A stretch of DNA of 64,000 bases from assembly GCA_010015805.1 (NCBI GenBank), contig ML978131.1:930001-994000 (forward strand). The letters run 5' to 3'. A model generated the notes under the pieces. It saw nothing but the letters and a program-made list of their open reading frames with translations, did no database searches and had not been told where the DNA came from. Positions 8,915 to 50,028 of the stretch are shown here, piece after piece (the first letter of the stretch is position 1; every line of letters starts with the position of its first letter). The translations under genes and the position numbers were made by a program. The DNA comes from Rhizodiscina lignyota. Taxonomy: Eukaryota > Ascomycota > Dothideomycetes > Aulographales > Rhizodiscinaceae.

Positions 8915-10543
8915 CTATCTACATGTGGTGAAGTCGCTCACATTCACCACCGGAACGCTAAAGGTCGGCAAACAGAGCCGAATGTTTTCTCCTTTTAGGG
9001 TATTCCCAAAGACTCTCCCGTACTCTCTTTGCGTTATTTTCACGAATTCGTCATAGATGCCATCCTTATGCATCTTCATCTTCGAATACTTTGCAACTCC
9101 TCCGAGCAACGCATTTACCGTAGTGATCTTACTATCCCAGCTCACAAACGCTGATATTCCAATTCCATCTCTTCTCTCACTCTCAGTACTCCCATACCGA
9201 TTCTGCATCCCCTTTCCGTCCAGCATGTTCTTGTACCAGGCCAATCCGATACCTTCATCGAATAGCACAGTCGGAAACACACTGTACGGCGTAATGACAT
9301 CGAGCTCCTGCACTGTCTGATTCGACACCTCTGGGACGCCAGCATTGCTGATATACCCGGGGATCTGGCCAGTTACAGGATCGGTGATGTTGTTCACGCT
9401 CGCAAACATGCCTGGATTCCGGCCCATGAGGACAGAGTTGCACGTCCGCACCCGCTCCGCATTGTTATAGAGACGCTTCACAATCGAAACATCGAAATAC
9501 GGAAGTTCGAGGACTTTCCACTGCTCGTGGGAAGAGAGCCAGAAGCCTTCTTGCACAGTAATAGGGCCAATGTGTCGGGATGTTACCAATGCTCCAGAAT
9601 AGTTCACCTGCGCGCCGGAATGGTACGTCGACGAAGTATCATACGACCCAACGTATTCCTTGCGAACAAGCTGTGGTCGCTTGACCTCCCACAGAGCATT
9701 CTTATCAGATGACGAAAGGCCACCAAAGAAATAGAGCCACCACGTAAAGAGTTCACCTTCGTAGGGATCATTGATCAGACCCGTTCCTTCGCAGGTATAG
9801 TTCTGACTTGGAGAGTTCGGAGGAAGCGATTGGTCGCCAAGATCCGCGACTGCACATACACGTCCAGTCCCATTGTAGAAAATACGTGCTGCATTGGAGG
9901 CTGTATAGTCGAGCCACGTCTGCCATGCTTTCGCAAGAGTCTTCCACTCACGATTCGGAGATGATTCAAGGACTTGCACTGCGGCGTACACGGACCAAAT
10001 GAGCTCGCCATTGTCGAGTGCGGGAACACGGTTGACCCAGTCGCTAGTTGGTTGGATGTCTGCCTGGTCAGCGAGGAACCAAGGCAGGAAGCCACCATAG
10101 CCTGGGAAGGTCTGGTTGAATTTGAGATAAGTGTTCAGCTTCGTTTTCAAAATATTGGCTGCGATCCCAGGAGCTGCTTTTTGGTTCGTCGGGCTCAGGA
10201 ACGTTGCTGCCCTGGAGTCGCCAGCGAGAGCATGAACATATACCATGATCTGGAGCGATTCTTTTGAGGCCGCCGAGAATGGATGTTTGTCAGTTGCTAT
10301 CCCGGTGGTGCCATTAATCAGAGTTCCGTCATAGCTCATACCATTTGCGGTATTGTAGCCAATATTGTTGGCATGAAAGTGGCCCTCCCAGTAGAGGATG
10401 TCATTCACAAAATTTGTTGGGTTGTTTAAGATCTCTTGCTGCGAATGGCGAGGAGAAAAGCGACATGGCGGAGCTTGGAAGCAAGAGACAAGAGAGAGCA
10501 AAAGTGTGACGACGACCAAGAAACCTCTTAGAAATGCCATCAT
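8915..10543 (-). CDS. Secreted glycoside hydrolase, possibly GH162 endo-beta-1,2-glucanase
   Basis: Single intronless frame of 542 residues. A strong signal peptide (MMAFLRGFLVVVTLLLSLVS, cleavage probably near CFQA) and several N-x-S/T sites indicate secretion. The mature protein has repeated aromatic/acidic helical blocks typical of an (alpha/alpha) toroid: GYGGFLPWFLADQAD, RVPALDNGELIWSVYAAVQ, YEGELFTWWLYFFGG and GIGLAWYKNML. The DNGEL and YEGELF blocks supply candidate catalytic acids. From memory this layout best fits the fungal endo-beta-1,2-glucanase families GH162/GH144, but I cannot confirm the family. Secretion and carbohydrate hydrolase character are the safer parts of the call. 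The frame ends at TTCR-stop with no sign of truncation. Confidence 0.6.
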   Translation of the reverse strand: MMAFLRGFLVVVTLLLSLVSCFQAPPCRFSPRHSQQEILNNPTNFVNDILYWEGHFHANNIGYNTANGMSYDGTLINGTTGIATDKHPFSAASKESLQIMVYVHALAGDSRAATFLSPTNQKAAPGIAANILKTKLNTYLKFNQTFPGYGGFLPWFLADQADIQPTSDWVNRVPALDNGELIWSVYAAVQVLESSPNREWKTLAKAWQTWLDYTASNAARIFYNGTGRVCAVADLGDQSLPPNSPSQNYTCEGTGLINDPYEGELFTWWLYFFGGLSSSDKNALWEVKRPQLVRKEYVGSYDTSSTYHSGAQVNYSGALVTSRHIGPITVQEGFWLSSHEQWKVLELPYFDVSIVKRLYNNAERVRTCNSVLMGRNPGMFASVNNITDPVTGQIPGYISNAGVPEVSNQTVQELDVITPYSVFPTVLFDEGIGLAWYKNMLDGKGMQNRYGSTESERRDGIGISAFVSWDSKITTVNALLGGVAKYSKMKMHKDGIYDEFVKITQREYGRVFGNTLKGENIRLCLPTFSVPVVNVSDFTTCR

Positions 10544-10931
10544 AAGGACGTGGAGCGACGGGATTGAGGATGAAGAGAAGTGTCAATGAGTGAAGTGAAG
10601 CTGAGGACCTACCGTTAAGTAATGGCAATGCATCAGAGACACGTTCATTGCCTTGATTCAGTATGTGGCTGCACGCTTGTCGGTGGTTGAATTGGCGGCA
10701 TTTGCGGGGAAGTTCGTGATCGTCTCGCAATGACGAGCCGTTCCTGCATGAAACTCCGCAACGGACCGGTAGAAGCTCAGAATTGGGCCGACGTCATTTT
10801 CGCTTGAATATTCTGGGTATGGACCACTGGAAGCAGCGTCAAGGCGTGCAAGTTTGGAATTCCGAGAGATCGGGGAAATGGGCATATCCTAGGGATCTCA
10901 TCAGATTAGATATGATCAACCCCATATCCCC
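10544..10931. other. Promoter region of the secreted glycoside hydrolase
   Basis: About 390 bp between the glycoside hydrolase start and the 3' end of the next minus-strand gene. Overlapping short minus-strand frames (10401-10885) show no recognisable domain and are treated as non-coding. Confidence 0.5.
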
Positions 10932-37405: not shown

Positions 37406-40306
37406 CTACGAAATCACAGCCTCCCTGTATGGTGACAGAACAACTGCACCAACAACACCATAAGCCTGCCGTGTCGCGATACCATACACTGCCGGATCTG
37501 TTGTCCGCAGCCTGTTCAGCAGCGTTGATGCGAATTCAATCTCGATCGTATTCTGCCCCGACTTGAGGTATCGGCCAATATCGTGACTCGCCGCTGTCTG
37601 ATCTGACGACGTGATACGTTTGTCGTTCACAGTGATAGCGAACGAGCCGCCAGAAACAGTGAAGCTAATCATAGCTCCTGTGTCACTGGGCCAGCTTTTG
37701 CCTAGGTCGAATTTTGTTGTGTACGTTCCGATTCCAGAAACATCCTGCAGCTCTGTAATTTGGGACCACGGGAGAAGAGAAGACAGCTTGAGGCTGTGCT
37801 TCTTGATCACAGTTGAGCTGTTTGTGCTTCCTGGGACAAAATCTTGGACGTCTAATTGCCAGGAAGTCAAGTTGAGGCTCGCCGGCACAGTGCCAATTTT
37901 GCTGGCCACCTTGCGACCATTCTGCAACGTCGTTGTGTACGTTCCAGTCTTATTTGCGCGAATCTTCATCTTTAACCCATCATATCGCACTGATTGAGCT
38001 GTAGTACTTGTCGCATGATTGAGGAGACTCGCAAACGGCACCATGCTGATCATTGTCGATTGTCCCCCTTGCAGAGCCATGTGGAGTTGTATGCGATTAT
38101 CGGGTAACTCCCGATACAAAGCAATCGGAGTGATTTCTCCAGTCCAGAGATTCAGCAGCACGGGTCCTTGATCCAATGAGCGTCTGAGAATTGTAATATC
38201 GACAACGGCGGCCTCGCTAGTTGCTGCCACTGCTTTGGATGTTGCGCCTCCGACAAAGAAGTAATGATCCATCAAGCCGTCCTCACGATGAAGGTAAATG
38301 AGAGAAGAATTGTCGTACTGAACAGCTGGTGATATTCCGAGGTCAGCAACACAATTTGGCATATCAGCCCTTGAAGCGGCATTTACAACGCTCGGTTGCT
38401 GGAGTAGCTGCTTCACTGTGTTTGCTACTTGAGCGGCTTCAGAAAACTCGCTGAGTCCATAAGGTAACGGAGCTGACCAGTTCCCAATGGCCATTATCTT
38501 CAAGCCTTGCTTTGCGTATTGAAGCAACTTTTCGGCGGTGTCTAAAGGTAGACCTGTTTCTTGATTGGAAAAGGCGTCGCCTTCGAATGTCAAAAGCTCG
38601 AAGTTTGGACCCTTCGGCGCAAGACGTTTCTGTGACACAGTCGCTGTTGGTAGATCCAGAAGGCTCGGAGCTAGGAAATTCAAACTCCAGCCCGCTCTCA
38701 TACCATCTTGGCTGAAGTACGAGGCTCCGAACCCGGAGGCGATGTAGCCTTTCTGGCGCAGAAATGCCACGTCGTGCCGAGCAACACCTTTCCTCATCAT
38801 CATCTGAACACGGCCGAAGTACGTCGAGATGTCTTTTGCATGGACCCATTGAGGCTGACGCGGACCCCACGCCTCTGAATAACCGATTGATCCATGATAT
38901 GGAGAAAATGCTGCAAATCCGGGCCAAGGTGAAGTCGGAGCATCCTTGTATGCGAATCCGTGAAAGACGTTCATGTTGACCCCGGCTGCCATGGCCGGGT
39001 TGACAATCTTGAGCACCTGATTCCAAGTTTCGCTGTATGCGCCTCCGTTGACTGCTGCAGCTTCGCACGAAATTCTCTCGTGAAGTGCCATGTTGTTGCC
39101 TCCGGCTAGAGATCGAAAGTCGTCAAGATTCTTGAACCCAAGCGTTTCACCTTCACCGATGTCAAAAGCGGCTGCGGCAGCCATTGAATCAGTCTGAAGA
39201 CCATATGGTTGCACACGCAGACCCATGCCGAATCCATGTGCCCATTGTTTGACAATATCGACGTGGTCTGAGATGTATAGGTTTCCCATGACGGTCCAAT
39301 AATCGTTCAAAGCTCCACGCGTAATCTCCGAATTGCTAAACGCGAAGACTTGGTTTTCGTCTTCTCGAACAATGGCAGGAAGGATAGATGTGATGTCGTA
39401 ATTCATTTGGCTTTGGAATTCTGCAGGTAGATTTGGTGTCCAGAACGTAGTAGCGTCTAGCTCTAGAGAATCCTCGAATATGTTACCGCCATCAGATTTG
39501 AACCGACTACGAAGATCTTTGTAACTGAGGATATGATTGTCCCAATAACTGGTAATAGCATTACTGCCATCCTTGGAGAAATGATCGATAACATAGGCAG
39601 GCGGCACGGTGTGCGGTCCGGCTTCGGGCTGTTGACCACTACCACGGACTCTGTAAGATAGTAGTAACCAAGTGGCGTTCCCAGGTGGAGTCCACGTTAT
39701 ACGGCCGTTTTTCACGTTCTTCGTCAGGTCAATGAGACTGTCGTGATCAAGCAACACCGTCTTCGCACTTGGACTACTGGTCGAGTTGATGCGCCATGCT
39801 TGGAGGGCCAAGAGAGTTGCAGTTGTAACACCGCTCTCGGCAGCTTGAAATGGTGCTGGTATAGCATCGTCATATGTTGTTTCCCCGTGGACAACAGCCC
39901 TGCCGTGCACAAGCTCCTTCGCGGCTCCGACGCTGTTGGGCGTTATTGATGGGATGGCAGCTGGCCAGGAAGGTCCAATAGCTATATCAATCTGAAAGTC
40001 ATGTTTGCTCGCTTCATCAAGTGCTGCAGAAACGGCGTCCAGCCAAGGCGCGGTCCCCCATCCATGCCCGGCCGGGTCCAGAATTGAGCCATTGTCGATA
40101 CTATGATGGACGTCCTGTATCTCTGCTCCCCCAAACCCGGCTTTAGCCATTTGACTGACTTCAGCCCTGATCTCGGTAGTCGAGACTAGTCCGCCTGGGA
40201 GCCACCATCGAAACATTGGTCGCGCTGATACTGGAGGACTTGCAAAGGTTGAAAAGGAGGAAACGAGAGAAGGAGACACTGACTGAAAAGCTGATAGAGC
40301 CGCCAT
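37406..40306 (-). CDS. GH106-like glycoside hydrolase (alpha-L-rhamnosidase-like)
   Basis: Intronless frame of 966 residues from the ATG at 40306 (an in-frame TGA lies just upstream). The N-terminal block RPMFRWWLPGGLVSTTEIRA followed by EVSQMAKAGFGGAEIQ and FQIDIAIGPSWPA matches the barrel start of family GH106 (bacterial BT0986-type alpha-L-rhamnosidases) and related uncharacterised hydrolases. Further on are EDSLELDATTFWTPNLP and GSIGYSEAWGPRQPQWVHAK, with candidate catalytic acids. The C terminus has beta-sandwich sequence (GTYTTKFDLGKSWPSD, FTVSGGSFAITVNDKRI) typical of galactose-binding-like domains. The N terminus is Ala/Ser/Phe-rich but a weak signal peptide, so the location is uncertain. 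Rhamnosidase specificity is inference from family. Confidence 0.7.
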   Translation of the reverse strand: MAALSAFQSVSPSLVSSFSTFASPPVSARPMFRWWLPGGLVSTTEIRAEVSQMAKAGFGGAEIQDVHHSIDNGSILDPAGHGWGTAPWLDAVSAALDEASKHDFQIDIAIGPSWPAAIPSITPNSVGAAKELVHGRAVVHGETTYDDAIPAPFQAAESGVTTATLLALQAWRINSTSSPSAKTVLLDHDSLIDLTKNVKNGRITWTPPGNATWLLLSYRVRGSGQQPEAGPHTVPPAYVIDHFSKDGSNAITSYWDNHILSYKDLRSRFKSDGGNIFEDSLELDATTFWTPNLPAEFQSQMNYDITSILPAIVREDENQVFAFSNSEITRGALNDYWTVMGNLYISDHVDIVKQWAHGFGMGLRVQPYGLQTDSMAAAAAFDIGEGETLGFKNLDDFRSLAGGNNMALHERISCEAAAVNGGAYSETWNQVLKIVNPAMAAGVNMNVFHGFAYKDAPTSPWPGFAAFSPYHGSIGYSEAWGPRQPQWVHAKDISTYFGRVQMMMRKGVARHDVAFLRQKGYIASGFGASYFSQDGMRAGWSLNFLAPSLLDLPTATVSQKRLAPKGPNFELLTFEGDAFSNQETGLPLDTAEKLLQYAKQGLKIMAIGNWSAPLPYGLSEFSEAAQVANTVKQLLQQPSVVNAASRADMPNCVADLGISPAVQYDNSSLIYLHREDGLMDHYFFVGGATSKAVAATSEAAVVDITILRRSLDQGPVLLNLWTGEITPIALYRELPDNRIQLHMALQGGQSTMISMVPFASLLNHATSTTAQSVRYDGLKMKIRANKTGTYTTTLQNGRKVASKIGTVPASLNLTSWQLDVQDFVPGSTNSSTVIKKHSLKLSSLLPWSQITELQDVSGIGTYTTKFDLGKSWPSDTGAMISFTVSGGSFAITVNDKRITSSDQTAASHDIGRYLKSGQNTIEIEFASTLLNRLRTTDPAVYGIATRQAYGVVGAVVLSPYREAVIS

Positions 40307-41735
40307 GATGAGATGTAAGACCAAATTGAGTCAGCTGCAAATGAGAGGAATGCGATCCTTTCTCCAGAGCGCTATAATAATCAACTGCCAGAACTGGAAC
40401 AGATATATGCTAATTACTTGCCCGTCAGGAGACCGGAAAATTGTGTCCGACGTCGCTATTTCCTGGGATTCTAAATGTTAGCCAAGCCATGCATGCAGAA
40501 AATGTGCTACAAGGTGAATGCAAGACGGGTGGGCATCTCCAATGAAGATATATCACTGACAAAGGTTAGTACAGCAACTTCTATTGCAAATCCGGCAGGC
40601 AAATAGTCCTTGAATTAGTATACTACCGGATCGAGAGGACACCTGGAAAGCTTTGCCGAGAGAACAGTTTGTCTCTGAGAGGAGATGAAGGCGGGCTGAG
40701 GCACAGTCCCCTCCACTGGTGCGGATACGAGTAGCCAAGACATCGCAGAATTCTAACATGGAGAGTTGGTTATATTCTAGCATAAGAATGTGAGAAGTTC
40801 GGGCCCATATCGCCCGGATTGTCCAGCATGAGCTGGTTAGGAGTCGCTTAACTTGGGGTAAGCAACCCCACGGGGTAGCTCTAGTACTGAGAATTTGAGA
40901 CTTCCGCGTGCCTGACGGGGGGATGCAAGCGAAGGGGAACGCATCCTGGTGGCCTGCAGTTGTCTTCAATAATACGAGATATGTCGAGGCTAATGACTAG
41001 CACCGTGGACATGAGGAATGATTAAATATAGGAGACGTCGTATCTGCGGAATTTCGGTGCAATGAACCCCGGACAATTCGATCGTACCTGCAGCGGCAGT
41101 CATGATCCTTGCCAGTAAAGATGAGAAGTGAACGGATGAAGTTCACCTCTCTGCAAAGCATGAATGATGAGTTTGACATTGCGTGAAAATGATGGCAGAG
41201 AAGTGGAGAAGATTTGCTTGACGCGAACTACACACGTCCAAAATTGTGACCATTCCGTTTATGGACTAGGCGCAACACGTCCAAGCGTCTGGCGTCTAGC
41301 ACCAAGGCCTATGCCTTCTATCAAATTATCAGTGTTGGCGTTACGATACGGAGTATCGTTGAGCTAGCCTCTGCGTTGGGTTCACTGTTGTATCCACAAC
41401 AATTCGAGGAGACATAGCCCTTATTCAAACTTCACAACATCAAGAAGGGAGCCTGCTTCAAGCTGTACCCAAACATGTGTCTACTTGGTATGTTGTGTAC
41501 TTTGCATTTTGCAATCATCATTACTGACTACTTGACTTGAGGATCTACCACCCTACGCCTCAATGTGTTGGTGTATGATTGCCCCCGCAAGCCAACACCT
41601 GCGACACTTGTTCAGTACCAAACTTCTCCCTAGCGATGGTGATGGGAACACAACAGCAGCACAGTCTCTTGACACATCTGCTACCAACGCCTCACAAGAC
41701 CCTTTCTGGATAACACAATAAGTGCCTGCTGTTTC
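40307..41735. other. Intergenic region between GH106-like and dehydrogenase genes
   Basis: About 1.4 kb with the GH106-like promoter and the 3' flank of the dehydrogenase. A perfect 17-bp dyad (ACGATAC-GGA-GTATCGT) lies at 41343-41359. The frame at 40553-40969 (138 codons) starts on a non-ATG codon and has no recognisable domain. Confidence 0.45.
41343..41359. promoter_or_regulatory. 17-bp dyad symmetric site
   Basis: ACGATAC-GGA-GTATCGT is a perfect inverted repeat with 7-bp arms. The core TACGGAGTA recurs at about 12201-12209. It may be a regulator binding site or a relic of a small mobile element. No function can be assigned. Confidence 0.3.
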
Positions 41736-43169
41736 TTAGAAAGACCCCAGGTGGAGATTGAAAAGCTGCATCGCCGCAGCTGTAATGGGCATAGCAGCGC
41801 CCACTAAATTCGCTTTCGACAACGCTTTTGCCTGTAATTGAAGTAAGAGGTGGAAAATCGCTTGTCAGTAACTGATTCGTATGGGCTGACATAAAAGAAA
41901 GCAAGCGTGAAATGCTCGACATACCAGTTTCTGACCGACGTCTTTAGCACCCTCGACGTCTTTGAGAGACCAAGTGGGCTTCTTCATCTTCGGTACATTC
42001 TCGATGAATTGCACATTAGATCCAGCGCCCTTGCTAATGATATCGTACATTAAATCAGTCTGCAAACCCACAGCTTCAGTAAAGCCCATGGCTTCAGCTG
42101 ATATTGCAAGATTCGCTCCTACGAAGATATCGATGATATCCTGGACAGTGATCTCGGGATTCCGTGGTACCACTGAATTCTCGCCTTTCGTCAATTGGTG
42201 TACAAGATGATCTGGATAACCAGGCAGATAGAGGCGCGTGAGGCGCGTATCGTCGTCCTTTATCCAGCCAGCATGTATGCCGGCCTGGAAGACCGTCTCC
42301 GCTGCTGCGGTTAGGAACACGGGAAAGTGCACAATGCGCGATTCGTTCACTATGATAGACTAGTAGCGATCAGCTGCGAATGCGACCTCAGAGTCGACGA
42401 GCCTTACTGTGTCCTTGTGGCTATTGGCCACGGCAGAGTAAATGCCATTATCTCCTTCAAGCATGTGTGGAATTCGATTCCCATTAACCCAGCTTGCGCC
42501 ATCACTGGCCTGCACTGCATCAAACACCTCCTGCGTATTCAGCCCGGCCCTTGCGGCAAGAGCCATTACCTCCGGTGCCAAACCGATTGCAACTTCTGCC
42601 GACACCTGATGGCACATTTTTGCTCTGGAGCCATTTCCGATGCCACCTGGAATCTTGTAGAGCTTGGCGCTCATAGCGTCGAGGACTGCATGAGCACTTG
42701 GAAGCTTCAAGCCTTCTTCTGGTCCGGAACTGAAAATCGAAAGAGTACCAGCGGCAGCACGAGGCGTTCCTCCGGAGACGGGACAGTCCAGCAAGTGTAT
42801 GTCGGACCGTTTATATTCGTTGTCGAGCCTTCCGCGCACTTCATTGGAATACTCCGGAGGCACGGTCGAGCTTATGATGATGATAGCATCTCGGGGAAGA
42901 GTGTTTATCGCTCCGGTGGTCTTTTCAAAGAGGACTTCTGTGACTTGGGAATGGCTTGTGACCATGATCACCAGGACTTCAGCATCTGCTGCAGCTTCAG
43001 CAGGTGAGGCTGCCGGCTTGCCTCCTGCCGCTACCAGCCTGTCTACAAAAGGCTTGTAGATGTCGAATCCCTTTACTATGAAATTCTGTTTCGCCAGCTG
43101 CATCGCCATACCACCACCCATAGCTCCAATGCCGCAAAATCCGACACGGGGATGTGTCTGACCTGCCAT
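41736..43169 (-). CDS. 3-hydroxyisobutyrate-dehydrogenase-like beta-hydroxyacid dehydrogenase
   Basis: Three exons (43169-42408, 42359-41925, 41831-41736) give 430 residues. The NAD-binding domain begins RVGFCGIGAMGGGMAMQL (GxGxMGxxM). The substrate motif is DCPVSGGTPRAAAGTLSIF and the catalytic-lysine segment is GNGSRAKMCHQ. The C-terminal NAD_binding_11-type helical domain runs through FPVFLTAAAETVFQAG and ends GAAMPITAAAMQLF. The family oxidises beta-hydroxyacids such as 3-hydroxyisobutyrate, tartronate or L-threonate. This member is longer than the usual ~300 residues because of insertions in the second half. It is head-to-head with a class II aldolase 470 bp away. In plants (Arabidopsis At1g18270) these two domains are fused in one protein, which supports a joint role in sugar-acid breakdown. 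Confidence 0.88.
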
Positions 43170-43639
43170 GGTTACGATGTTTGAAGAAGGCGTACAGACG
43201 TCAGTAAAAGAAATTAGAGAGGTGAAGATTCATAAAATTAATGTTACACTCAGAATATTTTTTAGGGTCTTGCCTTTTCGAATGAGATCCTATTCATTTG
43301 CGATGCGGACCTGAATTGTCCGGGTGTCATGAGATTTGTGTTCCAGTGGCGGTTCAGTATGCAGCTCTTCGGCCTCTTCCCCGCTCGTACGGGTTGGATT
43401 TGTATGCCAATGACTCAAATGGCCGAGACAAATGATGCGTTCCTTGGATTCGACATTACGTCTTTTGTTGTCAGATTTGCACATTCTGATTGCCAGGTTT
43501 CGAGAAACGTTGCATAAAAAGCAATTTGTACTCTTTTTGGAACGTTGCTGCGTTTGTAACCGGGCGTCTCAGCCTTCCAAATTTCAGTCTCGCAGCACAA
43601 AACATAAGTACAAGTCTGCATTTTCGTCCTCTCGCGAGT
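43170..43639. promoter_or_regulatory. Bidirectional promoter of the dehydrogenase/aldolase pair
   Basis: 470 bp between two divergent ATGs (43169 and 43640). The arrangement suggests shared regulation. CGG half-sites occur (for example TGGCGGTTCAG and TACGGGTTGG) but no clear paired Zn2Cys6 site is seen. Confidence 0.45.
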
Positions 43640-44696
43640 ATGGGCCACGAAAGGCTCGAAAACAACAAGACCATTCAGATTCTTCGAGCGGCATCAAAGG
43701 GGAAATATGGAATTCCTGCTCCACTTGCGTATGTCACGGGGAAACCCAAGACGATAAAGTCAACTCTGTGATCACTAACCGAGACTCCAGGTTCAACATC
43801 GAACATATACTTGGCTTTGTGAAGGCGGCAGAACGAAAAAGATCGCCTCTCATCATCCAATTGTTCCCATGGGCAATTACTTGGTCCGATGGACTCCTTG
43901 TGCATGCGGCAGCACATGCCGCTCGCAATGCTACAGTCCCAATCGCTGTTCACCTCGATCACTGCCAGGAGGAATCAATGGTTAAAAGAGCCGCTGAGTT
44001 GCCGTTCGATTCGATCATGGTCGACATGTCACACCACTCCAAAGCGGAGAATCTCGCGAAGACAAAGCAATGGGTGGCGTATTGTCACGCACGTGGAAAG
44101 GCAACTGAAGCGGAGCCAGGCAGAATCGAAGGTGGCGAAGATGGAATAGCAGACACAGTTGATTTGAGTGGAGTAATGACTACTCAAGAAGAAGCGCAAC
44201 AGTTTGTCGAATCTGGTGTGGATATTCTCGCCCCAGCGTTTGGAAACGTTCACGGCGAGTATGGCCCTCGAGGAATCGTCCTAGATTGGGACAGGTGAGT
44301 TGAACCCCTCTCAGTCTTCGTATATTCCTTTATTTAATTTTCTCATATGAAGAGAATTCCTTAGCATTTTTGTCCATTCCATACGCTCCCATTATCAGAA
44401 AGGCTAATGAGACGAGCATCAGACTAGCGACCGTCCAAAAAATAACTAGTGCTGGCGATGTTCATCTTGCTCTTCATGGTGTCCTATTTTTCTCAGAGGA
44501 ATTGACAAGAAATCTGATTGAGGCTGGCATAACAAAAATCAACCTGAATCGCGACACCCTGGTAGATTATTACGATCACTTGAAGAAGAATGTTGGCAAG
44601 ATTCCTTTCACTCAGTTGTTAGAGGAAGCGGTAGAGGTGTTAGCAGAAGCAACGGGAAAACAAATGGATATTGCTCTCTCGACTGGCAAAGCTTGA
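43640..44696 (+). CDS. Class II (zinc) ketose-bisphosphate aldolase family protein
   Basis: Three exons (43640-43728, 43791-44294, 44423-44696) give 288 residues. Class II aldolase markers are visible: SPLIIQLFPWAI, the zinc/catalytic block AVHLDHCQEESMVKRA, SIMVDMSHHSKAENLA, EAEPGRIEGGEDG, the second zinc histidine in FGNVHGEYGP, and LALHG followed by AGITKINLNRDTL. It performs retro-aldol cleavage of a ketose, sugar acid or their phosphate. The absence of any sugar kinase nearby leaves open whether the substrate is phosphorylated. An acceptor 24 nt earlier (44399) would insert eight residues; the later one has a GCTAAT branch point. It is head-to-head with the beta-hydroxyacid dehydrogenase. 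Confidence 0.9.
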
Positions 44697-44879
44697 TGGA
44701 TTTGAAAGTATTGCTGTCTCCATCGAACACTGACACGTCTGCCTCTGCGGCAAATGTAGCAACGCTTGCACGTGTATTAACTTTATACGCCATTTATCAT
44801 GGGACCTTTCCTTCCATAAATGTCTCTTCGGCGAAAATGTGTTCGTATGTCTAGTTTCCATCTACACATGTGACCGATC

Positions 44880-46046
44880 TTAAGCCTGGATCCGAGCAGC
44901 AGTAGCGGAACGGCCTCTAATGCGAACGGGGCATTTGAAAATACCACCCGCATAACGTGCAGATTCCGGATACTTTTCGGGGTCCGATTCAGCTGCGCTG
45001 GTGATATAGAGATCCTCTCCAGCAAAGGCAGTGCACTGTGATTCCATGTTAGCCCATCCAGAACTAAAAGAGCCATGACTCTGAAAGTTCGAACAGAAGA
45101 TGCTATACAGTGATATTGCGAGTTGGTAATCGTATATCCCCTAGTACCTGTCCACTCGGCGAAACTCGAATCACTCGCCAGCCTCCGTAAAGAGCGATCC
45201 ACAAGTTACCATCCTCGTCCTGCGAGTGGCCATCGGGAACAGCACCTGGTTCTTCGACAGTGAAGAACGTTCGCTTGTTCGAAATTGAACCAGTAGCAGC
45301 GTCATAGTCGTATGCGAAGATGCTCTTCGTCGGCGAGTCGGTGAAATAAAAAGTCTTGTCATCTTTCGACCAGCTCATACCATTGGCAATTGTTACCCCT
45401 TCAATCATCCGATGAAAGCTCCCGTCGGTATCAAGTCTGAAAACAACAGCTATTCGATTGGTTTAGTTCAAACAAGAAATCCACGAGACGAGGGCCGACT
45501 TACCTTCGGGCGAGAATTTGGTGACCTGAGGATCGTTGATGGCGCTGATCCAGAATCTCCCTTGGCTGTCGACGGCTCCGTCATTGGCTCTCATGCGCTC
45601 TTCTTTGCTTTCTCTGAGCTCTTCCGAGTTCCAGAAGCGTTGGATATAGCGATACTCGTTGCTATTCTTCTTCGCGATGCCAATTCCATGCTTCCCACCG
45701 AACAGGAAACTGTCTCCAGATGACGCTAGTTCAGCGGTGATCCTTACACCCCAAAGATTAGTAAAAGGGTTTCTTAGACCTTGCATTCACTGCGACTTAC
45801 CCCATTGAGATTTCATACTCCACTTTCTGCAATGACGACGGTCCGACATTTAGGTCCACACGGAACACCGTCTTGTTCACAATATCTACGAAGCGCAATA
45901 TATTTGCATCTTTCTCCCAGTATGGGCCTTCCGAAAGGGCGCAATGGAGATCAAGGAATGGCTTTCATGTTATTGTGACGTTAGAACGCTCTATTGTCAC
46001 TAATTTTGCAATCAAGCCTCACCTCCGTTACCGTAAAACTTTGCAT
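44880..46046 (-). CDS. SMP-30/gluconolactonase family lactonase
   Basis: Five exons (46046-46023, 45961-45801, 45742-45504, 45449-45109, 45035-44880) give 306 residues, the usual size. The first exon encodes only eight residues (MQSFTVTE), spliced to PFLDLHCALSEGPYWEKD with the metal-binding Glu. Further markers: RANDGAVDSQGRFWISA, VTIANGMSWSKDDKTFYFTD (metal-binding Asn and Asp) and GQVLGDIRLPTRNIT joined to CTAFAGEDLYITSA. The family are six-bladed beta-propeller lactonases that open aldono-lactones with a divalent metal. Next to a sugar 1-dehydrogenase, hydrolysis of the lactone that enzyme makes is the natural role. It is tail-to-tail with the aldolase (about 180 bp). Confidence 0.9.
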
Positions 46047-46325
46047 GGCTCCCGTCAATTGACCCCACCAACAGACAATGACAATAAGTACAGCAGACTG
46101 GGAAGAGTACGGCGGCGATAAGGCGATCACGATATTATCGTGCGAGGCGAAGGAGTGAGGAAGTGATGTCGATGAGACAAATACTTAAATCATAAGTGCC
46201 GAATAGCATCCAAACTAGGCTTAGCGTATCACCCTTGATGATAGGTATACTCTCGTGCCCCTATTTCCCCTTCAAATTCGAAAAATTCCAATCGTCATTC
46301 AATTAGACATATACACATCGTCCAT

Positions 46326-47108
46326 TCAGATCCATCCTGCATCAACCCTAATGCTCTGACTCGTGACAGCAGAGCTGTCATCTGCAGCTAACCACAACGC
46401 CATTCTTGCTACATCGTCTGGCTGCAACATTCGTTTCACCGCCTGCCCCTTCAGGATATCTGCTTCGATCTCAGGTGTGTATATCTCTCGCTTCTGTTTC
46501 TCAGTCGCAATGGCGCCGGGCATGATACTATTGACTCTAATTCCCTTTGGTCCAAACTCTTCTGCCAGCGCTTTCGTCAACCCTACGATTCCGGATTTAC
46601 TCGAGACATAAGTAATGAGGCTAGGAACAGCAACCTCCCAGGAAATGCTCCCCATGTTGATCACAGAGGCAGACCCTCCAGTAAGCAATCCTGGCATTAG
46701 AGCCTGTGTGAGAAAGAAGACGTGTCGCAGATTCACTGCAATTCCTTGATCCCATTGTTCCTGAGTGACTTCCAACGTTGGTTGTCGAACATCATTGGCG
46801 GCATTGTTAACCAAGACATCAATACTAGGAGAGCTCTCTAGAATTTTGGCTGCTACTGGCTTCAATTCGTCGTCGATTTTCGTTACGTCGCATTGATGGT
46901 AGACAGGAGGATGTACCACGTTGCGGTCGCGTAGCTTTTGTATGAGCTCGGACGCAGCCTCAGAGAGAATGTCCAGTATCACCACTTTTGCACCTTGCGT
47001 TGCAAAGGCTTCTACCATCGAAGCTCCAATCCCAGTGGCTCCGCCGGAAATGACCACGATTCGACCGAAAAGGCTCGGATAAGTGGCATACTGTCCTTGA
47101 GCTGGCAT
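46326..47108 (-). CDS. Sugar 1-dehydrogenase, SDR family (XylB-like)
   Basis: Intronless frame of 260 residues. The nucleotide site ISGGATGIGASMVEAF, the acid after beta-2 (VVILDI, NAD preference), LVNNAAND, the catalytic Ser in NMGSISWEVA, YVSSK and the end SIRVDAGWI are all present. Blocks such as YPSLFGRIVVISGG, PPVYHQCDVT, VNLRHVFFLTQALMPG and EIYTPEIEADILKGQ closely resemble the bacterial NAD-dependent D-xylose 1-dehydrogenase XylB of Caulobacter and its L-arabinose/L-fucose/L-rhamnose relatives, which make sugar lactones. The exact sugar is not predictable. Lack of introns next to multi-exon genes and the bacterial-type sequence raise the possibility of horizontal transfer. It is adjacent to the SMP-30 lactonase. 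Confidence 0.88.
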   Translation of the reverse strand: MPAQGQYATYPSLFGRIVVISGGATGIGASMVEAFATQGAKVVILDILSEAASELIQKLRDRNVVHPPVYHQCDVTKIDDELKPVAAKILESSPSIDVLVNNAANDVRQPTLEVTQEQWDQGIAVNLRHVFFLTQALMPGLLTGGSASVINMGSISWEVAVPSLITYVSSKSGIVGLTKALAEEFGPKGIRVNSIMPGAIATEKQKREIYTPEIEADILKGQAVKRMLQPDDVARMALWLAADDSSAVTSQSIRVDAGWI

Positions 47109-47450
47109 TTTCTGGGAGACTTTGGCCGTCTATGACAGCATTATCGGCTTTGAAATACAGGACATAAATTGAAGATTCTCGACATACCAATAAGCCCCGC
47201 AGCCGTTGGGTTAATTATTGTGTTTCTCTTCACGGCTCTGTTGGCAACTTTGTCATGTAGATATACCCAAAGTGGCTTAGCGACGACAACAGTTCTGCAA
47301 GGTGTCGGCCCGAGTTGAACGGCTCGAGGATCGTCTGTATTTTCGCGTCTTCTCCATATTTATTCTGTCACATGTTCCGGGAAAATTCCCTTGATGTGTG
47401 AACACCTCGTCAGCTATTGAACTATCCAATTACCCTACAGGACGCACAAT
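47109..47450. promoter_or_regulatory. Bidirectional promoter between two SDR genes
   Basis: About 340 bp between divergent starts at 47108 and 47451. Co-regulation is plausible. No unambiguous operator was seen. Confidence 0.4.
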
Positions 47451-48506
47451 ATGGCGGATCAGACAACCTCCGCAGCTCCAAAGCCTTACAAGGGCAAGCT
47501 TGGAATTGTGACAGGGGGGTCACGGGGTCAGTCCGACTGAGATATATCGAGGTACGATGTTCATTGTGTGCCTTCTGATGCGTTTCAACAGGAATTGGAG
47601 CAGCCGTTGCACGAAGGCTAGCCGCAAAGGGCTGCGCGCTTCTCCTCGTCTACACATCGGAATCTTCGAAGCCGTTGGTTCACCAGCTCTGCAGCGAGCT
47701 GCTATCTTCGCACAAGATCCCCTGTTCATACGTTCAGGCCGACCTGTTGCATTCGGAAGAAGCGGCGGCGCAAATCATTGAAGCAGCAAAGCATTTCTTC
47801 GCGTCTTACAACCCAAATGGCCAATTTCAAGTCGATATTCTGATCAACAATGCCGGAGTATCCTCAAACCAGCATTTGAATGATCCCAAACGTGGCCCGA
47901 TCAATGCTGCAGAATTCAACAGAGTGTATGAGGTGAACGTGCTAGCACCTTTGCTTCTGACGCAGGCGGTTGCACCATTCCTGCCAAAGGATCGCTCGGG
48001 TCGGATCGTGAATGTATCGAGCGTTTCTTCATCCATCGGGTACCAGGGCCAATCAGTATATGCGGGCAGCAAGGCAGCCATCGAATCAATGACGGTAGGC
48101 TCTCTTATATTATACACAGATACCCCAGACCTTTGCTAATTTGCTCTGCGTAAAGCGCTGCTGGAGTAGAGAGTTGAGCTCCCAGGCAACAGTGAATGCG
48201 GTGAACCCTGGCCCGGCATGGGGCGACATGTATGCAGAAGCTGGCCAAACGTTTTGGGATATCAATCAGCCATATGTTGATGCGGCTCCTCTCGCAGACT
48301 ATCATGGAGAACCTGAGGTGAAGGAAATGGCAGGCGAGGACTTCGAGAGATTCGACAAGACTGTAAGAGAAAATATGGGCGGGCAGAGGCCAGGATTCAC
48401 TCATGAGATAGCTGGAACAATTGACATGCTTTGCTCAGAGGAAAGTGGTTGGACCACAGGTAGTGTTATCTGTGCAAATGGGGGCATGAAGATGTCAATT
48501 GCATAG
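47451..48506 (+). CDS. Short-chain dehydrogenase/reductase (3-oxoacyl-reductase-like)
   Basis: Three exons (47451-47526, 47592-48094, 48156-48506) give 309 residues. The first intron splits the nucleotide motif: IVTGGSR joins GIGAAVARRLAAKGC (TGGSRGIG). LINNAGVSS, the catalytic SSVSSSIG and YAGSK follow; the C terminus is the usual WTTGSVICANGGMKM. VYTSES after beta-2 lacks an acidic residue, which suggests NADP(H) rather than NAD(H). The 61-nt second intron has a TGCTAAT branch point. It probably reduces a carbonyl product or oxidises a pathway alcohol within the sugar cluster; the substrate is inferred only from position. The protein looks intact. Confidence 0.88.
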
Positions 48507-48908
48507 AGATTCATTACTATGAGAGGAGCCTGTTGAATCTCCTTAGCTGTACGTGTGTATGAGAAACCTCGAGATTCGAATTCTGTGTACAGATTGGTCA
48601 TATCGCTTACCATTGCATCCAAGGCGTAACTTTTCAAGGATCTCTGATACGGAGGTTGTCAAACCAATAATAGAGGAAGAAAAGATGGAGTGCCCCCCGC
48701 ACGGAATCCGCTACGACACACACCACGACATAGCTCTTGCACTGTTTCTTTTTCATTGCACATAAACTTCAAGAAGATTCCACGTTCAAAAAGATCACAT
48801 ATATTCCGTATTCATTAAGTAAATAAATCAATAGTGTGGATTAAACGTGTCCGGCATCGCATTCCTCGAAACAAGACATTCAACATTGACGCAGCTGTTC
48901 ATTCGAAG
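48507..48908. other. Intergenic spacer upstream of the aldo-keto reductase
   Basis: About 400 bp, AT-rich, between two genes in the same direction. The aldo-keto reductase frame is open upstream of its ATG back to 48834 but without another ATG. Confidence 0.5.
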
Positions 48909-50028
48909 ATGTCTATAGAACGAAAGGGATTGAGCGGGTATAGCGGCAAAGTTAACATTTTGAATACTGGGGCAGCCATACCAGCAATTGGCTTAGGGAC
49001 ATTTCAAGATCCCGACGAGCAAGAGATGTCGGTCTATACAGCTTTGAAACTTGGGTACAGGCACATCGATACAGCCCACAAGTGCGTCTCCTTGAAATTA
49101 ACAGCAATATGGCGTCAGCATGAGACACTGATTTGCTCTAAACATAGCTATGGCACTGAGCAGCAAGTTGGCAGAGGGATCAAGCGTAGCGGCATACCAC
49201 GAGAGCAAATATTCTTAACGACGAAGCTCTGGTGTAACGCTCACCACCCGGATGATGTTGAACCAGCATTGGATGCATCTTTGAGAGACTTGGATACTGA
49301 TTATGTCGATTTGTATCTTATGCACTACCCATGCGCATTCAAGCGTGGAGATAATTTCCTTCCCTTCGATTCCAATGGAAGGATGATCACCGACACTACA
49401 CCATTCATCGAGACCTGGAAAGCAATGGAGAAGCTGTTGGAGACCGGGAAGACCAGGGCTATTGGCGTCTCAAACTTTAGCCAAATTGAAATTGATAAGA
49501 TACTGAATGAAGGCAATGTGGTAATCTCCCATTCCATCATGAATCTGCCCGAAACTAGGCATTGACTCTGCTCGTTCTTCTCCATAGGTACCAGCCGCTC
49601 ACCAAATGGAGCTACACCCGTACTTGCAGCAAAGGGATTTTGTCAATTGGCATAAGTTGAAAGGAATCCACCTCATCCAATTCAGTCCTTGCGGTAATCT
49701 CAACGACTTTTACCGAGAGGTCTCTTGGGGGAAGGAAATTGCCAAGATGGCGCGTCTGGTCGACCACTCGACTTTGTTGGAGACAGCAAAGAGACACCAG
49801 AAATCTCCAATCCAAGTTGCATTGGCATGGGGTGTTGCTAATGGCCGCTCGGTTATCCCGAAGAGCACCATCGAGTGGCAGATCAAACAGAATCTGGAGG
49901 CTGATTTCGAATTGAGCGATGAGGATATGGATGCGATTGCGAGCATGGATAAGAAAGCTCGGTTTAACGATCCCAGTGCGGACTTTGGTTATAAGCTATA
50001 CGTCGGCTTGGAAGGCGCGGCTCTTTGA
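48909..50028 (+). CDS. Aldo-keto reductase
   Basis: Three exons (48909-49081, 49148-49520, 49588-50028) give 328 residues, typical for the family. The catalytic tetrad is visible: Asp and Tyr in HIDTAHNYGTE (the Tyr is completed across intron 1), Lys in LTTKLW and His in LMHYP. The family signature near AIGVSNFSQIEIDKIL and the NADP-binding IPKSTIEWQIKQN are also present. It reduces aldehydes or aldoses with NADPH in the cytosol. Within the sugar cluster it may detoxify an aldehyde released by the aldolase or act on the sugar itself; this is inference. The stop lies 28 bp from the end of the opposing glycosyltransferase gene. Confidence 0.92.

Follow-up and report, generated by a model that had tools for sequence, protein, structure and literature searches.

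A fungal gene cluster with a class II aldolase lacking the phosphate motifs: a possible phosphate-free route of oxidative sugar breakdown in Rhizodiscina lignyota

Introduction

According to the available excerpt of PMC12540250, L-threonate is degraded in bacteria in three steps, by the dehydrogenase LtnD, the DUF1537 kinase 2-OtnK and the F_bP_aldolase-type enzyme 2-OtnC; a plant protein, LTD, combines these domains and is required for the degradation of L-threonate, its single activities not having been demonstrated. Described here is a set of seven neighboring genes (G1 to G7) of the dothideomycete Rhizodiscina lignyota, located at positions 37406-50028 of the window, i.e., of the whole stretch of 64,000 nucleotides that was analysed (contig ML978131.1, positions 930,001 to 994,000 of the forward strand; C11:930001-994000 in the contig numbering used below). 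Its aldolase, G3, has lost both phosphate motifs of its family and is encoded next to an LtnD-like dehydrogenase. The set is tentatively read, at a little below even confidence, as a phosphate-free oxidative catabolic cluster for an aldose, which may be L-rhamnose set free by G1. A first-pass annotation of the same DNA had proposed oxidative sugar breakdown, and as a whole that interpretation is partly supported. No paper on this gene set was found among the literature matches listed (open-licence texts, weak evidence of absence), and the available part of PMC5371717 contains nothing on it.

Gene set and layout

The genome searched comprises 33.4 Mb in 29 contigs. All seven genes were confirmed, and for each of them Pfam agrees with the family named in the first-pass annotation; every protein exceeds the gathering score, with E-values for the best family ranging from 2.4e-34 (G2) to 4.7e-74 (G3). 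The gene models were drawn by eye, without transcripts, and their introns are 48-104 bp long with GT-AG ends; such short introns, like the Fungal_trans regulators encountered, are in keeping with fungal DNA. The features are as follows (window positions; aa, amino acids; SDR, short-chain dehydrogenase/reductase).

37406..40306, minus strand: G1, GH106-type alpha-L-rhamnosidase-like hydrolase, 966 aa, single exon (PF17132)
41736..43169, minus strand: G2, LtnD-like beta-hydroxyacid dehydrogenase, 430 aa, two introns (PF03446, PF14833)
43170..43639: divergent promoter region of G2 and G3, 470 bp, holding a CGG-N11-CCG site at 43306
43640..44696, plus strand: G3, class II aldolase, 296 aa, two introns (PF01116)
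44880..46046, minus strand: G4, SMP-30/gluconolactonase-family lactonase, 306 aa, four introns (PF08450)
46326..47108, minus strand: G5, XylB-like SDR, aldose 1-dehydrogenase-like, 260 aa, single exon (NF053674)
47451..48506, plus strand: G6, SDR, 309 aa, two introns (PF00106)
48909..50028, plus strand: G7, aldo-keto reductase, 327 aa, two introns (PF00248)

G2 and G3 are divergent with 470 bp between them, G4 and G5 form a tandem pair, G5 and G6 are divergent with 342 bp between them, and a gap of 1429 bp separates G1 from G2. No promoter k-mer is common to the cluster genes beyond chance. By a rough, post hoc estimate, an SMP-30 gene and a NAD_binding_2 gene would both fall close to one of five aldolase loci with a chance of 4e-5 to 7e-5, assuming 5 SMP-30, 20 NAD_binding_2 and 5 aldolase loci; the genome-wide profile matches number 8 (SGL), 23 (NAD_binding_2) and 10 (F_bP_aldolase), some of them being exons of one gene.

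The aldolase

G3 scores 249.8 bits on the F_bP_aldolase profile PF01116 (gathering score 25.5). The earlier designation as a class II aldolase holds for an aldolase of the PF01116 fold, and not for the Aldolase_II family of E. coli OtnC. With 52% identity (290 bits), G3 is related to the structure 3pm6, which we take to be a putative fructose-bisphosphate aldolase (FBA) of Coccidioides immitis; a literature search found no paper naming this structure. The ten PF01116 matches of the genome represent six loci, one of them on C1. Motifs were read at the other five: G3 itself, the loci on C7, C25 and C3, which are of the G3 type, and that on C8, which has canonical motifs in the part read. The closest paralogue, at C25:195097-196020, is 52.8% identical to G3 and lies at the very end of its contig.

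Five fungal-type rows were compared, namely G3, the C7, C25 and C3 paralogues and 3pm6. Some of the 17 bacterial rows were obtained by scanning for a pattern taken from the fungal alignment, so the set is not a random sample; one row (L065) breaks off before the phosphate motifs, leaving 16 that are readable there. The zinc histidine motifs HLDH/HMDH, GN[VI]HG and LHG are kept in all five fungal-type rows, G3 having HLDH, GNVHG and LHG with all three histidines, which are presumably the zinc ligands. Judged from these motifs, the zinc site of the five fungal-type aldolases looks intact. Bacterial row L064 is without the second zinc motif, so some of the bacterial rows may not be functional aldolases.

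The motifs HGxS and NxxT are assumed here, from E. coli FBA structures, to hold the phosphate of dihydroxyacetone phosphate (DHAP). Allowing HGxS/T and NxxT/S, both are found in 16 of 16 readable bacterial rows (15 Ser and 1 Thr at the first site, 15 Thr and 1 Ser at the second) versus none of the five fungal-type rows. At the first site G3 reads HGVL and the other fungal-type rows HGAD, HGTN, HGAH and HGTA; at the second site G3 reads NLNR and the others NVNR, NVNQ, NING and NQNK. The motif FPW is common to the five fungal-type rows, 3pm6 with its same loss of the phosphate motifs included, and occurs in none of the 17 bacterial rows. The fungal-type rows form one clade, with a support of 100/99 and on a long stem, in a tree that was midpoint-rooted and has good support for 7 of its 18 inner branches.

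G3 is thus without the phosphate motifs of a DHAP-dependent class II aldolase, whether FBA or tagatose-bisphosphate aldolase (TBA). Its best score on the NCBIfam FBA/TBA equivalogs is 164 bits against a cut-off of 343, a miss that says little by itself, because the kinase-linked bacterial aldolases L070 and L072 (see below) miss nearly all of these cut-offs too. G3 probably does not use a phosphate donor of the DHAP type.

As to relatives outside the fungi, no bacterial homologue more than 36% identical to G3 was present among 12 confirmed loci in genome contigs (exact-pattern scan, not exhaustive). Every matching plasmid record is below 60% identity, with 30-38% in the best 30 of 390 and the best 20 of 263. 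In viral contigs 44 stretches matched the pattern and none was confirmed as a member of the aldolase family; a viral origin was rejected for want of a confirmed relative there.

The dehydrogenases and the lactonase

G5 scores best in NCBIfam on the D-xylose 1-dehydrogenase XylB (NF053674), with 290 bits and thus below the equivalog cut-off of 400; its best PDB matches are the SDR 4lvu and the sulfoquinovose 1-dehydrogenase 9gwu. It is 41-46% identical to bacterial proteins (40 rows listed) versus 32% to the best SDR paralogue of its own genome, where the SDR family is very large (127 matches to G5, itself counted). An SMP-30 gene lies within 7 kb of the G5 relative in five of the eight bacterial neighborhoods examined out of the 40 listed (L049, L050, L052, L053 and L056, not L051, L054 or L055), which bears out the earlier observation of a sugar 1-dehydrogenase beside a lactonase. 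G4 reaches 222 bits on PF08450 (SGL), and its residues E19, N164 and D214 align with those that we take to be the metal ligands of regucalcin. The conversion of an aldose via its lactone to the aldonate is supported by family membership and genomic company, and it is likely, with good confidence, that the cluster oxidizes a sugar to its acid.

The assignment of G2 to the beta-hydroxyacid dehydrogenases stands and can be sharpened to LtnD-like: the protein scores best on the L-threonate dehydrogenase LtnD (NF043037, 256.3 bits, below the equivalog cut-off of 350) and carries GxGxxG, SGG and K184. Its C-terminal part (41736-42359) repeats the NAD_binding_11 stretch but not NAD_binding_2, as would be left if a tandem arrangement of the LTD type had been truncated. 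G2 is the proposed aldonate 2-dehydrogenase. G6 (136 bits on PF00106) has its best PDB match at only 1e-28, and G7 (160 bits on PF00248), for which a role as aldehyde reductase is proposed, matches the aldehyde reductase 2alr with 224 bits.

Convergent with the aldolase paralogue on C7 is a gene whose best score is on D-erythronate dehydrogenase (269.7 bits, below the cut-off of 325). The same region, C7:997000-1016000 (L028, L029), also holds genes for a transporter (Sugar_tr), a regulator (Fungal_trans) and a dioxygenase (PhyH), and is a second putative sugar-acid cluster. A nearby exon matches 2-hydroxyacid dehydrogenases, with 84 bits for glyoxylate reductase and 73 bits for the hydroxypyruvate reductase GhrB, both far below the cut-offs. 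A neighbor related to a known sugar-acid (tetronate) dehydrogenase is therefore seen at two of four fungal aldolase loci, LtnD-like in the present cluster and D-erythronate-dehydrogenase-like on C7. The C3 aldolase paralogue is convergent with an SDR gene.

The sugar substrate

G1 scores 125.7 bits on PF17132 (cut-off 29). In its sole PDB match, 6q2f, E282 and E415 of G1 align with Glu 506 and 644, presumably the catalytic pair of RHA-P. G1 is GH106-type alpha-L-rhamnosidase-like, and hydrolysis of a rhamnoside is predicted. It is 43.0% identical over 98% of its length to a Streptomyces protein, 42.4% identical to a Natronococcus protein encoded between an alpha-L-rhamnosidase and the L-rhamnono-1,4-lactonase rhcC, with rhcD also alongside, and 37.5% identical to a Halocatena protein encoded near an L-rhamnose mutarotase gene. 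Rhamnose genes thus accompany G1 relatives in two of the four loci examined out of ten listed (37 records matched), both in haloarchaea; no named rhamnose gene was seen in the Streptomyces and Sphingobium neighborhoods. A horizontal origin of G1 and G5 is possible, since both are single-exon genes with 43% and 41-46% identity to prokaryotic proteins and weak paralogues in their own genome; their GC content at third codon positions is ordinary.

Three CGG-N11-CCG sites of the RhaR type lie between the cluster genes, the third being that of the divergent promoter listed above:

40800..40816: CGG-N11-CCG site, about 0.5 kb upstream of G1
41055..41071: CGG-N11-CCG site, about 0.75 kb upstream of G1
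43306: CGG-N11-CCG site in the divergent promoter of G2 and G3

In the 3108 bp of intergenic cluster DNA 0.55 such sites are expected (P about 0.02, weak and post hoc). RhaR of A. nidulans binds CGG-X11-CCG, as stated in the available text of PMC4245848; PMC7532622 makes no mention of the motif.

Matches over the cut-off to L-rhamnonate dehydratase (NF011968) occur on C4 and C6, with 500.6 bits and 420.5 bits, and none on C11. At C6:432378-434858 such a match lies 0.7 kb from an SDR match, and the two may mark the usual LRA-type cluster. L-rhamnose as the substrate of the present cluster is conceivable, at clearly less than even confidence.

Elsewhere in the window, an open reading frame (ORF) on the minus strand at 8915-10582, without a Pfam match, is a strong relative of the endo-beta-1,2-glucanase structure 6imu (726 bits).

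Proposed route and alternatives

From the genes, their families, the motif loss and the neighbors we infer every reaction, their order, the sugar and the hydroxypyruvate product as follows. G1 would release a sugar, possibly L-rhamnose, from a glycoside; G5 would oxidize the aldose to the lactone, G4 would open the lactone to the aldonate, and G2 would oxidize the aldonate at C2 to the 2-keto-aldonate. G3, as a zinc aldolase with a pocket no longer holding the DHAP phosphate, would split the 2-keto-aldonate between C3 and C4, giving hydroxypyruvate and an aldehyde made of the remaining carbons, which would be L-lactaldehyde if the acid is rhamnonate and glycolaldehyde if it is a pentonate. Reduction of this aldehyde or of the keto acid would fall to G7 and/or G6. 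Hydroxypyruvate corresponds to DHAP with the phosphomethyl group exchanged for a carboxylate, and it can chelate zinc via the same keto and hydroxy oxygens. Because of this mimicry a DHAP aldolase without its phosphate pocket could cleave a 2-keto-aldonate at C3-C4, and such a cleavage would join G2 and G3 in one order of steps and need neither a dehydratase nor a kinase. The motif-less aldolase beside an LtnD-like dehydrogenase would fit the cleavage of a 2-keto acid, not of a 2-keto-3-deoxy acid. Hydroxypyruvate as the product of G3 is a possible outcome, on balance doubtful. The first-pass annotation had regarded the route as incomplete or finished elsewhere, no dehydratase being visible; none is indeed present among the seven genes, and none need be missing if G3 cleaves the 2-keto acid.

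More generally, fungi might possess a family of zinc class II aldolases without phosphate binding, paired with LtnD-like or DenD-like 2-dehydrogenases and serving a dehydratase- and kinase-free cutting of sugar acids to hydroxypyruvate and an aldehyde, with the present cluster as a complete example starting from the glycoside; in this general form the proposal is somewhat unlikely.

Several observations weigh against the proposed route or against rhamnose as its substrate. The C3 row, the least certain one, requires a gap at the first phosphate site, with a Thr beside it. The residue replacing Thr at the second site differs across the five rows (R, R, Q, K, G), with no uniform carboxylate-binding residue, which argues for differing substrates of the paralogues or against a simple carboxylate clamp. 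No recognized sugar-acid dehydrogenase was seen at C3 or at C25, where the contig ends and the neighbors were taken without a profile scan. LtnD has been described with a C4 acid as its substrate. The C2-C3 configuration is erythro in L-rhamnonate and threo in L-threonate, and because of this difference D-xylonate or L-arabinonate might be a better substrate for G2. A scan of 17 ORFs of the window found no Sugar_tr/MFS gene, the G1 model has no clear signal peptide, nor did a simple one-intron enumeration give a signal-peptide exon, and over the whole window CGG-N11-CCG is not enriched (13 sites versus 11.3 expected). The dehydratase matches on C4 and C6 suggest that the usual rhamnose route exists elsewhere in the genome, and with two such genes a second route is less needed. 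No natural hydroxypyruvate-forming retro-aldol route for aldonates was among the literature matches listed (open-licence texts, weak evidence of absence).

An ordinary route similar to those of Weimberg or Dahms, for xylose, arabinose, fucose or rhamnose, with the dehydratase and the transporter encoded elsewhere and G3 as an unrelated aldolase, is unlikely. It agrees with the families of G5 and G4 and with the dehydratase-family loci of the genome (7 matches to PF13378 and 8 to PF00920, some of them exons of one gene), and for the L-fucose route of T. reesei the available part of PMC12370193 proposes that a dehydratase and an aldolase serve more than one pathway. Against it, such a route would leave unused G2 and G3, which face each other across the divergent promoter, and aldolases for 2-keto-3-deoxy acids are not usually of the PF01116 family.

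It is rather improbable that G2 and G3 are part of a three-step fungal route for L-threonate or another tetronate in the manner of LtnD/2-OtnK/2-OtnC, with the kinase supplied from C12 and with G5 and G4 either making the tetronate or being neighbors for another purpose. In favor of this reading, L-threonate dehydrogenase is the best score of G2, 2-OtnC has an F_bP_aldolase domain (excerpt of PMC12540250), and a DenD-like gene adjoins the C7 paralogue. The sole PF07005 (DUF1537 kinase) match of the genome, at C12:24053, follows LtnD-like frames (C12:21800-25321; L038, L039), an arrangement resembling the plant LTD fusion minus its aldolase part. Against it, no PF07005 match occurs in the window and no PF01116 match on C12, so that kinase, LtnD-like dehydrogenase and aldolase were not found as one set. 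The C12 kinase matched 7 plasmid records, and three of the six loci examined have an aldolase of the PF01116 fold (Deinococcus L070, Arthrobacter L071 and Rhodococcus L072). All three keep both phosphate motifs, HGxS and NxNT, which G3 lacks; the NxN part is common to the fungal rows and six bacterial rows, these three included. An LtnD-like gene is in view only at L071 (236.5 bits), below the equivalog cut-off like G2 itself. The L070 oxidoreductase was considered as LtnD and rejected when a profile search pointed to an epimerase-like protein, and L070 and L072 are therefore used solely as examples of aldolases linked to a kinase. As far as the aligned motifs go, this control shows motif retention in kinase-linked aldolases, the full LtnD set resting on one locus. 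Given the phosphate motifs, G3 is unlikely to be simply a 2-OtnC, a reading that is retained as a rival.

That the genes form no pathway, and are oxidoreductases and hydrolases of separate function such as are common neighbors in ascomycete genomes, is quite improbable. In favor of it, the strands are mixed, no regulator or transporter is among the seven genes, G1 lies 1.4 kb away and the SDR family is very large; against it, the rough, post hoc chance of co-location given above is low and a second aldolase of this type is paired with a sugar-acid-dehydrogenase-like gene on C7.

Should the phosphate-free route be true, it would be a third logic of oxidative sugar breakdown, the direct cleavage of 2-keto acids, next to the two that pass through 2-keto-3-deoxy acids or phosphorylated intermediates. 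An aldolase family with a solved structure, 3pm6, for which no assigned function was found, would thereby gain one; the expected products are hydroxypyruvate and either lactaldehyde or glycolaldehyde, and the aldolases could serve to make 2-keto sugar acids. Otherwise the cluster adds modestly to what is known of fungal sugar catabolism.

Comparison with known systems

In the fungal L-rhamnose pathway LRA1-4, the lactonase LRA2 is of the amidohydrolase family and the aldolase LRA4 of the HpaI type. Membership of the cluster in this pathway was rejected: L-rhamnonate dehydratase is absent from the seven genes and has its matches on C4 and C6 instead, and with neither an HpaI-type aldolase nor an amidohydrolase among them the difference from LRA1-4 already recorded in the first-pass annotation is confirmed. 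As far as the available text of PMC4245848 goes, the cluster shares with LRA1-4 the logic of sugar dehydrogenase, lactonase and aldolase, a rhamnosidase and sites of the CGG-N11-CCG type, and it differs in having an SMP-30 lactonase.

The L-fucose route FDH1-LGD1-LGA1 of T. reesei likewise shows an NAD-dependent SDR starting the oxidative breakdown of a 6-deoxysugar in a fungus; unlike the cluster, it is proposed by its authors to proceed through a dehydratase and a 2-keto-3-deoxy-acid aldolase shared with galacturonate breakdown (PMC12370193, available part). Bacterial loci with a XylB-like SDR and SMP-30 (e.g., L049, L052 and L053) are similar in that the SDR is about 45% identical to G5 and the SMP-30 gene is adjacent, and dissimilar in that the annotated neighbors are of the dehydratase, FAH or 2-keto-3-deoxygluconate (KDG) kinase type (L049, L050 and L056).

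With the L-threonate pathway, as given in the excerpt of PMC12540250, the cluster has in common an LtnD-like dehydrogenase adjoining an enzyme of the F_bP_aldolase fold; in contrast to that pathway, it is without a kinase, its aldolase is without the phosphate motifs, and genes for an aldose dehydrogenase and a lactonase are added.

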